This document shows, piece by piece, positions 28,407 through 34,407 of a DNA stretch of 64,000 nucleotides. The notes below the pieces were generated by a model. The model had not been told where the DNA came from. It searched no databases and worked only from the letters and a program-made list of their open reading frames with translations. Each line of letters begins with the position of its first letter. Within the stretch, counting starts at the first letter, position 1. The stretch is taken from the NCBI GenBank assembly GCA_947642445.1, contig CANRSF010000007.1, positions 1 through 64,000 of the forward strand, given 5' to 3'. The translations under genes were made by a program, and so were the position numbers. This stretch comes from an uncultured Collinsella sp. (lineage in GTDB: Bacteria > Actinomycetota > Coriobacteriia > Coriobacteriales > Coriobacteriaceae).

Positions 28407-28437
28407 ATGTGACAAAGGGACTGTCCCTTTGTCACAT
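28407..28437. repeat. GACAAAGGG palindrome overlapping the MerR stop codon
   Basis: 15-bp perfect arms ATGTGACAAAGGGAC/GTCCCTTTGTCACAT. On the minus strand the arm supplies the last codon ATG and the TGA stop of the MerR gene. Confidence 0.8.
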
Positions 28438-29301
28438 CTGGAGGGTAACGGGGATTTGGATGCAGCAAAAGTCCTCTTGGTGGGACTCGTCGTAGCTCGT
28501 GGTATCGAGGTAGCAAAAGTCGAAAGCGTTGCCAACGGGCTGGAGCGCGTGCTCGTCCATGCAGGCAACGATGGCGCGGATGCCCTCGGGCTCGTACGGC
28601 ATACCCCAGCGGCTCATGCACAGGTATGTGCCCTCGGGCAGCACCTCGATGCCGATCTCTGCCAGCTCGGCGGGATCGCTCGGCAGCAGTTCCTCGACAC
28701 CGCGCGGCAGCACGGCAAAGGAGCCCGCGCCGGCGATAGGGTCGTCGGAATGCAGCGCCTCGCGACGCAGCATGGCGCCCCAACCGCGCATGGGGCGCGT
28801 GCCCGTCAACGTACGCATGCGCAGGATTGCCCGCATGAGCGTAGGGTGAAGCATCGAGCGGCCGCGCTCGATATCGCCCGGAAACTCCTCAAAGACCACG
28901 TAGCGACGCTCGAATTGCTTGAGCTCCGGCTTGCCCTCGCGCTCGCGCCAGTAAACCGCCTCGTCGTAAAAGCTCAGGCGCTCCTGCACGCTCGCGCGCT
29001 CGGCTTTGAGCCCGGCAATCTGCTCGTCGAGCGCCTGCACCCGTGAGCGCAGGTGATCGGTCATTTCGCCAATGTCGAACGTCGAGGTCAGACGGTCAAT
29101 CTCATCGAGCTCGAGCCCCAGGTCGCGCAGCATGCAGATCAGGCGCATGAGCGGGATCTGCGTGGGCGAATAGAAACGGTAGCCCTTTTCGTTCACCACG
29201 GCGGGCTTAAACAGACCGATCTTGTCGTAGTAGATGAGCGTTTGGCGCGAAACATTAAACAAGCTCGCCATCTCGCTAATCGCATACATGCCCGTCTGCA
29301 T
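28432..29301 (-). CDS. MerR-family regulator with effector-binding domain
   Basis: 289 aa. N-terminal MerR wHTH (MYAISEMASLFNVSRQTLIYYDKIGLFKP, then YRFYSPTQI), central coiled coil (about 75-110) and a C-terminal GyrI/BltR-like effector domain. Starts MQTGMYAIS with GGGAGGAC upstream. It is the last gene downstream of ubiX and is probably the regulator of the decarboxylase cassette; the candidate operators are at 33301-33331 and 34442-34472. Effector, possibly an aromatic acid, is inferred. Confidence 0.87.
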   Translation of the reverse strand: MQTGMYAISEMASLFNVSRQTLIYYDKIGLFKPAVVNEKGYRFYSPTQIPLMRLICMLRDLGLELDEIDRLTSTFDIGEMTDHLRSRVQALDEQIAGLKAERASVQERLSFYDEAVYWREREGKPELKQFERRYVVFEEFPGDIERGRSMLHPTLMRAILRMRTLTGTRPMRGWGAMLRREALHSDDPIAGAGSFAVLPRGVEELLPSDPAELAEIGIEVLPEGTYLCMSRWGMPYEPEGIRAIVACMDEHALQPVGNAFDFCYLDTTSYDESHQEDFCCIQIPVTLQM

Positions 29302-29332
29302 AGGTCCTCCCGACACATCCCTTTGATGCACA

Positions 29333-29393: not shown

Positions 29394-29972
29394 CTATGAC
29401 CAGCGCTTATAGTTTTCACATGACACGCCGACGGCCTCGAGCGCCTTGGCGGCGATGTGATGCACCGCGTCGTCGAGCGTGGCGGGGCCGTTGTAAAACG
29501 TGAGCATGGGCGGCATGAGCATGACGCCCGGCACGCGCGCCAGGCGCGCCATGTTGTCGACGTGAATGGCGCTGAAGGGCGTCTCGCGCACCATGAGCAC
29601 CAGGCGGCGTTGCTCTTTCATCTGCACGTCGGCCGCACGCAGCAACAGGTTTTCGCTGTAGCCGCTCGCGATGCCGGCGAGCGTCTTCATGGAGCAGGGC
29701 GCCACGATCATGCCGTCGACCGGATAGGTGCCGCTTGCGATGGAGGCGCCGATGTTCTTGTTGTCGTAGACCACATCGGCATAGCACGCAAACTCGTCGA
29801 GCGTCATGCCGAGCTCCTGCTCGATGGTAATCTCTCCCCCGCGCGTGACGACGAGCGCCGACTCGGCGCCGGCCTGGCGCAGGCATTTGAGGCACTCAAG
29901 GCCCAGCGCGGCACCGCTGGCGCCAGACACGCCAACGACAATGCGACGAGGACGGACAGAAGACTCAGGCAT
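29394..29972 (-). CDS. ubiX: flavin prenyltransferase UbiX (LpdB-like)
   Basis: 192 aa. Joins a dimethylallyl group from dimethylallyl phosphate to FMN to make prenylated FMN, the cofactor of UbiD decarboxylases. Seen: VGVSGASGAALGLECLKCL (FMN phosphate loop), APCSMKTLAGIASGYSENLLLRAADV (the SM.T.A.IA.G signature) and RRLVLMVRETPFSAIHVDNM (substrate phosphate site). The start has AAGGAG upstream. It lies about 200 nt after the ubiD stop, with a structured repeat in between. Confidence 0.95.
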   Translation of the reverse strand: MPESSVRPRRIVVGVSGASGAALGLECLKCLRQAGAESALVVTRGGEITIEQELGMTLDEFACYADVVYDNKNIGASIASGTYPVDGMIVAPCSMKTLAGIASGYSENLLLRAADVQMKEQRRLVLMVRETPFSAIHVDNMARLARVPGVMLMPPMLTFYNGPATLDDAVHHIAAKALEAVGVSCENYKRWS

Positions 29973-30035: not shown

Positions 30036-30185
30036 CAATGTCAGCGAGCGCGCGCCTGGCGAGACAAGGTGCCCCGAAACAAGAAGGCATAGGGCTTATG
30101 CCCATGCCTTCGCAGCTGGGGGGCAGATTGTCCGCCAGGCGCGGGCGCAGCGTCGACCGGTGCGGCGTTTGTTAAAACGCCGCAA
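30036..30185 (-). repeat. structured intergenic repeat, copy D, overlapping the ubiD stop
   Basis: Same layout as copies A-C with different stems: outer CGCGCCTGGCG/CGCCAGGCGCG, GACAA/TTGTC, TGCCCC/GGGGCA, apical GAAGGCAT/ATGCCTTC, box GCAGCGTCGACCGG and terminal hairpin GCGGCGTTT/AAAACGCCGC. Here the ubiD stop codon TAA lies inside the terminal hairpin, so the repeat encodes the last residues (AAF). Confidence 0.78.
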
Positions 30186-31662
30186 TCTCCCTAGCCCACT
30201 TGTCCTTGTCGATCTCCATGAACTGCGAGCGGATGAAGTTCTTCTTAAGGTTGAACGGGACCGTGCAGTCGAAGATGGCCTTGCAGGCGATGCCGTGCTC
30301 GCGAATCGACGGATCGAACGCGGGGTCGTTGGACGGGTCGAGCACGTGGCAGTGGCAACCGGGGATGGTGATAAGGTCCACGTCGGCCTGGAAGCGCGTG
30401 GTCATCGCCCACATCACGTCGCTCATATCGAAGATATCGACATCCTCGTCGACCAGAATCACATGCTTGAGCTCGGAGAATGCCGAGAAGGCGAGCATGG
30501 CGGCGTTGCGTTGACGGCCCTCGTCATTTTTGCTCGACTTCTTGAACTGCATGATGGCAACGAACTTGCCGCCGCCGCAGGGAGCAGCGTGGACGTTGAG
30601 CAGGCGACCCGGGATAGCGGTCTCGACCATCTTGTAGATGGAAGCCTCGGTGGGGATACCGGCCATGGAAACGTGCTCGTGCGAAGGGCCGATGCAGCTC
30701 TCCATGATGGGATTGACGCGCGTGGTGACGGCGGTGATCTTGATCACCGGGCAGACCTTGGCGCCGCCGGTGTAGCCGGGGAACTCGGGCATGGCGTAGC
30801 CGTGGCCGTTGACATCCTCGTTGATGGTCTCGTCGTGCATGAGATAGCCCTCGAGCACGTACTCGGCATTGGCAATGCACTTCTGCGGAACGGTGACGCA
30901 GTCGGCGAGCTCGACAGCACGGCCGCGCAGGGCGCCGGCGATCTGCAGCTCGTTGAAGCCGAGCGGCGTGGTGGGAGCCTCGAAGCCGCAGCACATGTAC
31001 ACGGCGGGATCCAGGCCGATGGAGATGGAGATGGGCATGTCCTCGCCGCGCTGGCAGTACTCGTCGAAGAACGCGCCCAGGTGACGGCTGCCCGGGGTGA
31101 TCCACATGGCAAGCTTGTCCTTGTCGACGCAGGAGAAGCGGTGGATGGTCACGTCGGACTGGGAGCCATCGGGGCTCGTGCCGTAGGCGAGGCCCATGGT
31201 GATGTAGGGGCCGCCGTCGACGGGCGTGTTGGTGGGAGCGGGGACGATCTTGCGCAGGTCAAAGCCCTCGTCGGTCGCCTTGTACACGACCTCCTGGCAG
31301 TCGACATGCTTGCCCTCGGCGATCTGCTCGGGCGCGATCAGGTTCTCGAAGCGCTTACCGATCTCGAGGCCCAGGTGCTCCTCATCCAGGTCGAGCAGGG
31401 CGGCAACGCGCTTGCGGCTGGCAAGCATGCCGATGCAGACCTTGGCGTCGTCAAAGCCCTTGACGTTGTTGAAGACCATCGCCGGACCCTCTTTGGTCGG
31501 ACGCATAACGGTGCCGCCGGCACCGACGTGGCGATAGACGCCCGAGACCTCGGCATCGGGATCGACCTGGGTGTCGGTCTCGAGCAGCTGGCCCGGCATC
31601 TTGCGCAAAAAGTCGAGTGCGGAGCGCAGGTCGTGGATCTGGGAAGCATCGGTAGTGGACAT
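30172..31662 (-). CDS. lpdC: UbiD-family decarboxylase, gallate decarboxylase (LpdC)-like
   Basis: 496 aa, prenylated-FMN-dependent. From memory it follows Lactiplantibacillus LpdC closely: SGVYRHVGAGGTV, RPTKEGPAMVFNNVKGF, ATDEGFDLRKIV, PTNTPVDGGPYIT, SDVTIHR, a cofactor-site acidic segment near EDVNGHGYAMPEFPGYTGG, EHVSMAGIPTEASI and DEDVDIFDMSDVMW. Likely removes CO2 from a hydroxylated aromatic acid. The substrate (gallate, protocatechuate or other) cannot be read from sequence. ATG MSTTDAS with GGAG upstream. Lies between the transporter and ubiX. Confidence 0.88.
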   Translation of the reverse strand: MSTTDASQIHDLRSALDFLRKMPGQLLETDTQVDPDAEVSGVYRHVGAGGTVMRPTKEGPAMVFNNVKGFDDAKVCIGMLASRKRVAALLDLDEEHLGLEIGKRFENLIAPEQIAEGKHVDCQEVVYKATDEGFDLRKIVPAPTNTPVDGGPYITMGLAYGTSPDGSQSDVTIHRFSCVDKDKLAMWITPGSRHLGAFFDEYCQRGEDMPISISIGLDPAVYMCCGFEAPTTPLGFNELQIAGALRGRAVELADCVTVPQKCIANAEYVLEGYLMHDETINEDVNGHGYAMPEFPGYTGGAKVCPVIKITAVTTRVNPIMESCIGPSHEHVSMAGIPTEASIYKMVETAIPGRLLNVHAAPCGGGKFVAIMQFKKSSKNDEGRQRNAAMLAFSAFSELKHVILVDEDVDIFDMSDVMWAMTTRFQADVDLITIPGCHCHVLDPSNDPAFDPSIREHGIACKAIFDCTVPFNLKKNFIRSQFMEIDKDKWAREIAAF

Positions 31663-31759
31663 AGCGTGCTCCTTTCGGGAGAGTGCCCGGCGGCGGGAGT
31701 GCCGCCGGACTGGGGAACGTAGTGGGGCCATGGCGCCCATAGATGGAGCGCTCGGCCGC

Positions 31760-33216
31760 TTACATCAGGCCAAAGAGATGGAACCAGGCGGCCTCGACCA
31801 GCACGACGATAAAGACGACCGCGGTGAGGGGAATGCCCATGCGCATGGCTTCTTTGGAGGTGTAGCCGCCGGCGTCCTTGCCCTCGCCGATAAGGATCGG
31901 CAGGTTATGGAACGGCAGGATGTAGTGGATGTTGATGGACGTGAAGACGATGAGTGCCACGGCGAGCGGGCTCACGCTGGAGCCGGCCGCGAAGCTGATG
32001 AACGCCGGCACGCACACGCCGAGTACGGCCATGACCGAGCCCATGAACATGTGGATGATCATGGAGAGCGCGGCGACAAGCAGGGCGAACAGGAAGATGT
32101 TCTCGGGCACGGAGCTGGGAAGCACGACGTCGGCGATCCAGGCGTTCATGCCGGTGGCACCGCCCACAGAGCCTACGGCCATGGCGGCCGTCAGGAACAT
32201 GAGGGACTTGATGTCGACAGCATTCCAGCTGGCGGGGGTGAGGACCTCGCCGATGACGGGCATGGCGAGGCAGACGCCGATGGCCAGGGTGACCCAGCCG
32301 ATGTAGTCGCCCGAGACGGTGAGCCACAGCGCAATGGCGATGACAAGCCACACGATGGTGCGGATCTCCTTGACGGAGAGCTTGCCGAGCGCGGCCTGCT
32401 TGGCCACGATCTGCTCGCGATCGTAGACGAGCTCCTTGCTGGGCTTAAAGAGGAAGAGGCCCAGGAACAGGGTGCACAGCAGCGCGACCAGCATGGGCAC
32501 GCTCATGTACAGGAACCAGTCGACGAAGGACGGGCTCATGCCGCCGGCCTCGGCGCTGTACTGCGCAACGAGCGGGTTGAGCGTGGAGTCGCCCGTCAGG
32601 AAGAACATGGAGCCAGGGCGGCAGCGGCAAACACGAGGAAGCCGAGCTTGCCGCGGTCGTCGTCACCGTAGCCGGCGGACTCGGCGATAACCGAGACGAC
32701 GGCGAGGATGAGGAAGGCGCGGGGGAACGGATGCGGGATCAGCAGCGACAGCACAAAGGTGAGCGCGAAGATCGAGATGATGAGCGACTTGGCGTCGCGC
32801 ACGAACTTGAGCATAAACGCATAGGCGATGCGCTCGCCCAGGCCCGACTCCTTGACCGCGCTGGCGATGAGGTAGGCGCCGATGACGAGCCACATGGTGG
32901 CCTTGGTCCACGAGCTAAACGTGGAGGCGACCGTCGCCGAGATGCTCGCGGCGCCCGTGTCGTCCACGCACACCTTGAACAGAACGAGCAGCGCGCAATA
33001 GAGCAGGCCCACAAAGCCCGGCTGTGCCACGCCACACGCCCAGAACACCACCGTGGCGAGCGTCAACGCCAGACAGGTCTGACCGCCGACCGTAAGCTCG
33101 ACCGTCGAGCTCAGCTCCGCCAAAGGAAGAAACTTCACTAGCAAAAAGACAACGATACCCAGCACAAAGCCAATTTCGCGCTTGGTGATCTTAAACGCCT
33201 TCTTTTCCGCTTCCAT
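31760..33216 (-). pseudogene. DASS-family anion:sodium symporter, split by a one-base frameshift
   Basis: Divalent anion/sodium symporter-like (SLC13/CitT type), expected 485 aa. The first frame (from MEAEKKAFK, AGGTGGGG upstream) runs to a TGA at 32596; the second resumes at MFFLTGDSTLNPLV. Adding one base in the CCC run at 32616-32618 restores A-A-P-G-S-M-F-F-L-T-G-D, exactly the family's second conserved helix-break motif. Around ten membrane helices in all. First gene of the operon transporter-ubiD-(repeat)-ubiX. Either a sequencing error or a recent inactivation; no slippery site is seen. Confidence 0.85.
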
Positions 33217-33267
33217 CTCCCCACCTTTCTTGTTGGGGGCGCTCCGGATTCGCAGCCACGTTGCCAC

Positions 33268-33436: not shown

Positions 33437-33466
33437 ATGGCAAAGGGACTGTACCTTTGTTACATA
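33437..33466. repeat. degenerate GACAAAGGG palindrome at the lpdD-like gene stop
   Basis: TATGGCAAAGG/CCTTTGTTACATA. On the minus strand it supplies the terminal ATG TAA of the gene, as the palindrome at 28407 does for the MerR gene. Confidence 0.6.
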
Positions 33467-34407
33467 GCGAGGGCCGTACGGATGGATGGGTCGCTGAGTG
33501 CCTCGCGGAGCCAGGGGGCCAGCTGCTCGGGGTGACCCTGCAGGTAGCCTTTGAGCTCGGACGGGGCCACGCGACGCACCTCCGAGATCTCCTCTTGGTT
33601 GATATGCAGCTCGCCCGGCTCAACATGGGCTGCGAACACCTCGCACCATTCGCACTCGCAGCGGCCGTCGCCGTGATCCTCGCGATACACCACGTGACCG
33701 AGGTGCTTGAGCTGGTCGGGCTCGCGCGCAATGCCAAGCTCTTCGTTGATGCGACGCGCCGTGGCGGCCGCGACGTCTTCCCCGGGGAGCGGATGGCCGG
33801 CGCAGCTATCGGCCAGCACCCCGCCCCACAGGCGCTTGAGCGGACTGCGGCGGCAGAGCAGCAGGCGCGCGTCCTCGCCCTGGCCCTCGACCAGAAGCGT
33901 CAGAAATGCCTGATGCAGGATGCCCTCGCCGGCATGTGCCTCGATGCGATCGACAGGGCCAAGCGCCTCGCCGGTCGCGGCATCGACCGCCACGACCTCG
34001 GCGCCTGCACCGCCCTCATCCCAGCCGGCGCGCAGGATGCGCGCGGCGGCCTCCTCGAGCGCGGCGATGAGCTCCTTGGTGGTAGCGAGCACGCGCTGCA
34101 GATCGTCCGCAGTCGCATGCTCCACATGAAAGCCCGTGCTTGCAACTACCGGCACGCCAAAGCGCGTGGCCAGCGCCGCCGCGATATCGTGCGCCGGGAT
34201 CTCATCTCGATGGCACGGAACGGCCAGGATGCTCACGGTCGCCGTGCGACCGGGCTCAGGGCGCGGAATGGCCTGCGCCGTGGCGCCCAGATGCGCGTAC
34301 TCCGGCGAGCAGGCGTACACCACCATGCCGCGCGGCGTCACCGTCAACTGGGCCTCGAGCGCAAACTTGCCCTCGCCCACTGCAACCTTTGTCGTGTGCA
34401 TACCCAT
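33460..34407 (-). CDS. fusion of LpdD-like prenyl-flavin chaperone domain and IPP-isomerase-type NUDIX domain
   Basis: 315 aa. Residues 1-120 match the small LpdD protein of gallate decarboxylase clusters (VPCHRDE at 63-69, VASTGFHVEHATADDL around 90). Residues of about 150-300 are an Idi-1/NUDIX fold. Aligned by eye to E. coli Idi, the metal ligands are kept: H158 and H165 with the same 7-residue spacing (AHAGEGILH), H205 (AGHP), E251 and E253 (ECEWCEVF). The NUDIX helix is RRINEELGI. The catalytic Cys67 position is Ala203; a Cys sits one residue earlier (DSCAGHP). ATG chosen for AGGAG 5 nt upstream. Function may be dimethylallyl phosphate supply or cofactor loading; this is inference. Confidence 0.8.
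   Translation of the reverse strand: MGMHTTKVAVGEGKFALEAQLTVTPRGMVVYACSPEYAHLGATAQAIPRPEPGRTATVSILAVPCHRDEIPAHDIAAALATRFGVPVVASTGFHVEHATADDLQRVLATTKELIAALEEAAARILRAGWDEGGAGAEVVAVDAATGEALGPVDRIEAHAGEGILHQAFLTLLVEGQGEDARLLLCRRSPLKRLWGGVLADSCAGHPLPGEDVAAATARRINEELGIAREPDQLKHLGHVVYREDHGDGRCECEWCEVFAAHVEPGELHINQEEISEVRRVAPSELKGYLQGHPEQLAPWLREALSDPSIRTALAM

Follow-up and report, generated by a model that had tools for sequence, protein, structure and literature searches.

A fusion of an LpdD-type domain with a Cys67-less IPP isomerase-like domain in a UbiD/UbiX cluster of Collinsella, and its probable link to prenylated FMN supply

We analyzed a stretch of 64,000 nucleotides (the window) of contig CANRSF010000007.1 from an uncultured Collinsella sp. 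(assembly GCA_947642445.1). It contains a gene, P0001, whose product joins an LpdD-type domain to a NUDIX domain of the type I isopentenyl diphosphate (IPP) isomerase (Idi-1) type; a first-pass annotation of the sequence had placed its reading frame correctly (Table 1). Downstream on the same strand follow genes for a DASS symporter, a UbiD-family decarboxylase, a UbiX flavin prenyltransferase and a MerR regulator, so that the neighborhood of UbiD and UbiX named in that annotation was found as well. The frame of the DASS gene is broken at 32596-32608 (minus strand), where one base is missing in comparison with the nearest relative (L032). Programmed frameshifting was ruled out, since the relatives have a single intact frame and the window is one base short; the deletion arose either by recent mutation or through an error in the assembly. 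In a number of related clusters (L034, L035, L036, L042 and L043, and likewise L046, L048-L050 and L052), a second, divergent UbiD-family gene with 26-28% identity to the window UbiD is present, which mostly adjoins DASS symporter genes. The host genome encodes one UbiD, one LpdD and one Idi-1-like protein, and neither a type II Idi above the cut-off nor a further Idi-1 was found in it. Therefore, the accessory genes serve, if anything, that UbiD.

Table 1 Features of the fusion gene and its neighbors in the window
Feature	Position	Strand	Details
LpdD-Idi fusion gene (P0001)	33460..34407	-	315 aa, ATG start at 34407
LpdD/PAC_bac domain (PF21758)	34051..34374	-	metal-site residues H39, H66, D68 and invariant H94
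Idi-1-type NUDIX domain	33466..33999	-	kept: H158, H165, R187, K191, H205, R219, E223, Y241, E251, E253, W299
Codons of C202 and A203	33799..33804	-	alignment to E. coli Idi
DASS/SLC13-type anion symporter	31760..33267	-	two frames from one-base deletion relative to the nearest relative
UbiD-family decarboxylase	30172..31665	-	nearest relative of known structure: AroY protocatechuate decarboxylase (5o3m, 560 bits)
UbiX flavin prenyltransferase	29394..29972	-	His at PaUbiX-181 position
MerR-type regulator	28432..29304	-	downstream of ubiX

Both halves of the fusion were recognized in profile searches. Residues 12-119 matched the Pfam family PAC_bac/LpdD (PF21758) with 68.8 bits (E = 4e-19; cut-off, 27 bits), and residues 165-298 matched the NUDIX family PF00293. 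With the NCBIfam model NF002995 for isopentenyl-diphosphate delta-isomerase, residues 137-312 scored 129.9 bits (cut-off, 127 bits); the score with TIGR02150 was 75.5, under its cut-off of 105.8 bits. The AlphaFold model of P0001 had a pLDDT of 89, with a low-confidence linker at residues 131-134. In structure comparisons with this model, residues 3-128 corresponded to LpdD from L. plantarum (8po5/8pzh) with Z scores of 15.9-16.2 over 117-120 residues, and residues 136-315 to E. coli Idi (1hx3) with a Z score of 23.7. The nearest folds of the NUDIX domain were IPP isomerases without exception. The earlier assignment of residues 1-120 as LpdD-like and of the C-terminal part as an IPP isomerase-type NUDIX domain is thus borne out by both profile and fold. 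As the fusion was uninterrupted in 18 genomes of the sampled family and the dN/dS ratio among Collinsella was about 0.13-0.15 for both domains, we conclude that it is neither a chance event nor an assembly error. Both halves are under purifying selection, and this includes the comparisons with two Collinsella genomes that lack UbiD (G108 and G235).

In the LpdD half, H39, H66 and D68 correspond to H35, H61 and D63, the residues of the Mn site in L. plantarum LpdD, a protein that binds prFMNH2 and activates UbiD (PMC10865409); the Mn ligands are therefore retained. Besides these residues, P0001 has the fold and the adjoining UbiD and UbiX in common with this chaperone of the L. plantarum gallate decarboxylase (8po5), but the identity is 12-13%, and in P0001 the domain is joined to an Idi-type NUDIX domain. 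Stand-alone LpdD proteins of related loci (L067, L069, L070 and L073) are 68-73% identical to the LpdD half of the fusion and have no UbiD within about 9 kb; in one of these genomes (G096), UbiD was not detectable.

In E. coli Idi, Cys67 serves as the catalytic acid/base. Alignment of P0001 to this enzyme placed H158, H165, H205, E251 and E253 at H25, H32, H69, E114 and E116, and Ala203 at Cys67, in agreement with the first reading of the sequence, and Cys202 at V66; the assignment of residue 203 is based on the gap-free alignment around H205. All of H25, H32, R51, K55, H69, R83, E87, Y104, E114, E116 and W161 of the E. coli enzyme are retained. We then compared 15 Cys67-less domains with 49 canonical Idi domains. 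Position 67 was Ala in 14 and Ser in one of the former, and Cys in all of the latter, whereas the metal and substrate ligands were common to both groups. Among the Cys67-less domains, R51, K55, H69, Y104, E114, E116 and W161 were invariant, and H25 and R83 were retained in 14 of the 15, one relative having Tyr at position 25. The two groups were cleanly separated at K21R, N64D, C67A/S and position 118, as well as at positions 57, 58 and 68, and N64D was fixed jointly with C67A, the equivalent of N64 in P0001 being Asp200. The Cys one residue before Ala203 had drawn attention as a possible shifted catalytic residue. This was ruled out, since both cysteines are present in 45 of the 49 canonical Idi proteins of the class and the alignment register is set by H205. 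Because it is retained in both types, Cys202 is, judging from the alignment, the ancestral neighbor of the catalytic Cys in a CC-S/G-HP motif. To summarize, P0001 shares with the type I IPP isomerase of E. coli (1hx3, 1nfs) the fold, the metal/diphosphate ligands, Y104, W161 and the Idi-type Nudix box, and differs from it in the replacement of Cys67 by Ala and of N64 by Asp, in the fused LpdD domain and in its location in a UbiD cluster.

The Nudix pyrophosphohydrolase box GX5EX7REUXEEXGU is not matched by P0001, where the segment reads GHPLPGEDVAAATARRINEELGI, with RR replacing RE. Its box is thus of the Idi type (RRxxEE) and not of the hydrolase type (REUXEE), and R219 occupies the position of the hydrolase Glu, the same as in true isomerases. 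A regained hydrolase Glu (RxxEE) was dropped as a marker of the Cys67-less type, since EE occurs in canonical domains too. All cluster UbiX proteins readable at the PaUbiX-181 position, including that of the window, have His there, and the window UbiX resembles the UbiX of E. coli O157, which shares this His. The O157 enzyme is active with DMAP and gives a higher yield with DMAPP, although the residue at position 181 is not the sole determinant of donor specificity (PMC12359138).

Across the class, LpdD was carried by 52 of the 398 genomes surveyed, and in 31 of these 52 an Idi-like gene was fused to it or located no more than about 5 kb away. The Cys67-less type was present in 26 genomes, with an AroY-type UbiD close by in 23, as compared to 9 of 49 canonical Idi genes near UbiX/UbiD (Fisher p = 3.5e-9, uncorrected for kinship; because of the kinship among genomes, the true number of independent linkage events is small). 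The search of Coriobacteriia genomes for this domain pair, suggested by the first-pass annotation, thus returned intact fusions with conserved UbiD linkage. When 84,980 species genomes were scanned with the motif AD[ST]CAGHP, 18 relatives were found, in Collinsella, Enorma and MAGs labeled Coriobacteriia or Actinobacteria/Actinomycetes; the last-named MAGs are class genomes already sampled, so that among these species no such Cys67-less form occurred outside the Coriobacteriia.

In the tree, the Cys67-less type formed a single clade (support 100/96). The fusion of Idi with LpdD arose at least twice, each time with LpdD first and Idi second: once in the Coriobacteriaceae branch of the Cys67-less clade, and once in G338 (L039), where the CCSHP motif is intact and Cys67 hence retained. 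In other families of the class, canonical Cys67 Idi is linked to LpdD and was fused to it once. The sister group of the Cys67-less clade, with Ser67 (L142, L143 and L144, in genomes G501, G481 and G617), lies outside the class and within the same phylum; its three genomes have no UbiD, and the neighboring genes are unrelated. This suggests that the loss of Cys67 probably preceded the link to UbiD and the recruitment for prenylated FMN (prFMN). Three Collinsella genomes are also without UbiD: the fusion is intact in G108 (L033) and G235 (L106) and broken in G232 (L040).

RibBA is a bifunctional riboflavin enzyme. Its gene sits in the UbiX/LpdD/UbiD operons of L046 (8943-10193), L050 (9445-10836), L051 and L052, where it directly precedes the Cys67-less gene; in L050-L052, UbiD and LpdD stand directly before this gene pair. 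In two lineages (L046 and L050), the coding sequences of RibBA and the Cys67-less protein overlap by ATGA, which may be taken as a sign of translational coupling. No RibBA was present in the Collinsella clusters examined, including the window. With RibBA in the operon, the flavin half of prFMN is covered and, we infer, the prenyl half as well.

We consider it likely that the fusion is part of a dedicated prFMN-supply module, whatever its chemistry; this estimate covers the whole supply role, with which hydrolysis and isomerization as discussed below overlap. The link to prFMN supply had been proposed in the first-pass annotation, and this part of the proposal is supported by the conserved linkage, the two independent fusions and the RibBA genes in the operons, whereas its route to DMAP by cleavage is less supported. 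Counting against the supply role, the linkage of the Cys67-less type traces to few independent events, the fusion is intact in the UbiD-less G108 and G235 and broken in the UbiD-less G232, and the three genomes of the Ser67 sister group have no UbiD either.

Within this role, the Idi-derived C-terminal domain would bind Mg/Mn-DMAPP as the prenyl donor. Having lost Cys67, it would no longer run the normal isomerase reaction and could instead hold or present DMAPP for UbiX, while the LpdD domain may take up the prFMNH2 product and help to load the adjoining AroY-type UbiD. Binding of the prenyl donor, one of the options raised earlier, fits best, because every metal/diphosphate ligand is retained while the catalytic Cys is gone, and donor binding without isomerization would explain the retention of all but Cys67. 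If the prFMN role is accepted, we place binding and delivery of DMAPP first, at somewhat under an even chance, its hydrolysis to DMAP second, as rather unlikely, and a residual isomerase activity third, as slightly less likely; this order follows from the missing hydrolase box and from the His that the cluster UbiX shares with the O157 enzyme. The complete scheme, in which the Cys67-less domain passes DMAPP to UbiX and LpdD carries prFMNH2 to UbiD in one polypeptide, would represent a new class of prFMN-assembly protein, and we put it forward as a tentative idea that is, taken as a whole, doubtful.

The leading alternative to donor binding is hydrolysis of DMAPP by the NUDIX domain to DMAP, the monophosphate donor of many UbiX enzymes. 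NudJ, NudB, NudF and NudI of E. coli are Nudix hydrolases. They were reported to convert DMAPP to DMAP for prFMN (PMC12359138) and are thus, like P0001, Nudix proteins tied to prFMN; unlike P0001, they are not Idi-like, not fused and encoded outside UbiD operons. A DMAPP site apparently retained in a domain without the isomerase Cys would be consistent with this activity, but the REUXEE box is missing, with R219 in place of its Glu, and the adjoining UbiX resembles an enzyme with a better yield on DMAPP, although its His alone is not decisive. For these reasons, we regard hydrolysis as unlikely.

The protein could also still be an IPP isomerase that uses another acid, for instance Asp200 (N64D), and would then raise the DMAPP level beside UbiX. 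The NF002995 score above the cut-off, the joint fixation of N64D with C67A and the linkage of canonical Idi to LpdD in other families, including the one fusion, point in this direction. In contrast, the catalytic acid/base itself is replaced in all 15 domains. Moreover, IspH makes DMAPP directly in the MEP pathway, and its gene is present in the host genome, therefore no isomerase is required for DMAPP there. We find a retained isomerase activity improbable. That the NUDIX domain has nothing to do with prenyl donors, and instead has a flavin or another diphosphate as substrate, acts as a scaffold or has a UbiD-independent role, would agree with the RibBA gene adjoining the Cys67-less gene in relatives, the intact fusion in two UbiD-less genomes and the Ser67 sister group, but is equally improbable given the invariant or nearly invariant Idi residues and the IPP isomerases as closest folds throughout.

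UbiD decarboxylases are sought for the production of fuels and chemicals, and many of them are difficult to activate in a heterologous host, since little is understood of how prFMN is supplied and loaded. LpdD belongs to the few UbiD helpers known, and its fusion to a relative of IPP isomerase, together with RibBA in some operons, points to a missing donor-supply or donor-channeling step. In the literature searched (prenylated flavin, chaperone, decarboxylase and Nudix jointly), no paper paired LpdD with Idi or NUDIX proteins, and the LpdD paper (PMC10865409) mentions neither Nudix nor isomerase. As far as this search reached, the fusion, the Cys67-less clade and the operon partners are undescribed; both domain families were already known. 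The prFMN maturase PhdC, likewise encoded in a UbiD/UbiX operon, is an accessory protein and acts on prFMN as well, but it has a flavin reductase fold, oxidizes the prFMN radical and belongs to a separate protein family (PMC13040415). The fusion also provides a naturally occurring variant, without Cys67, of a textbook enzyme; several E. coli Idi sequences in the PDB (1ow2, 1hx3) have Ala at position 67 too.
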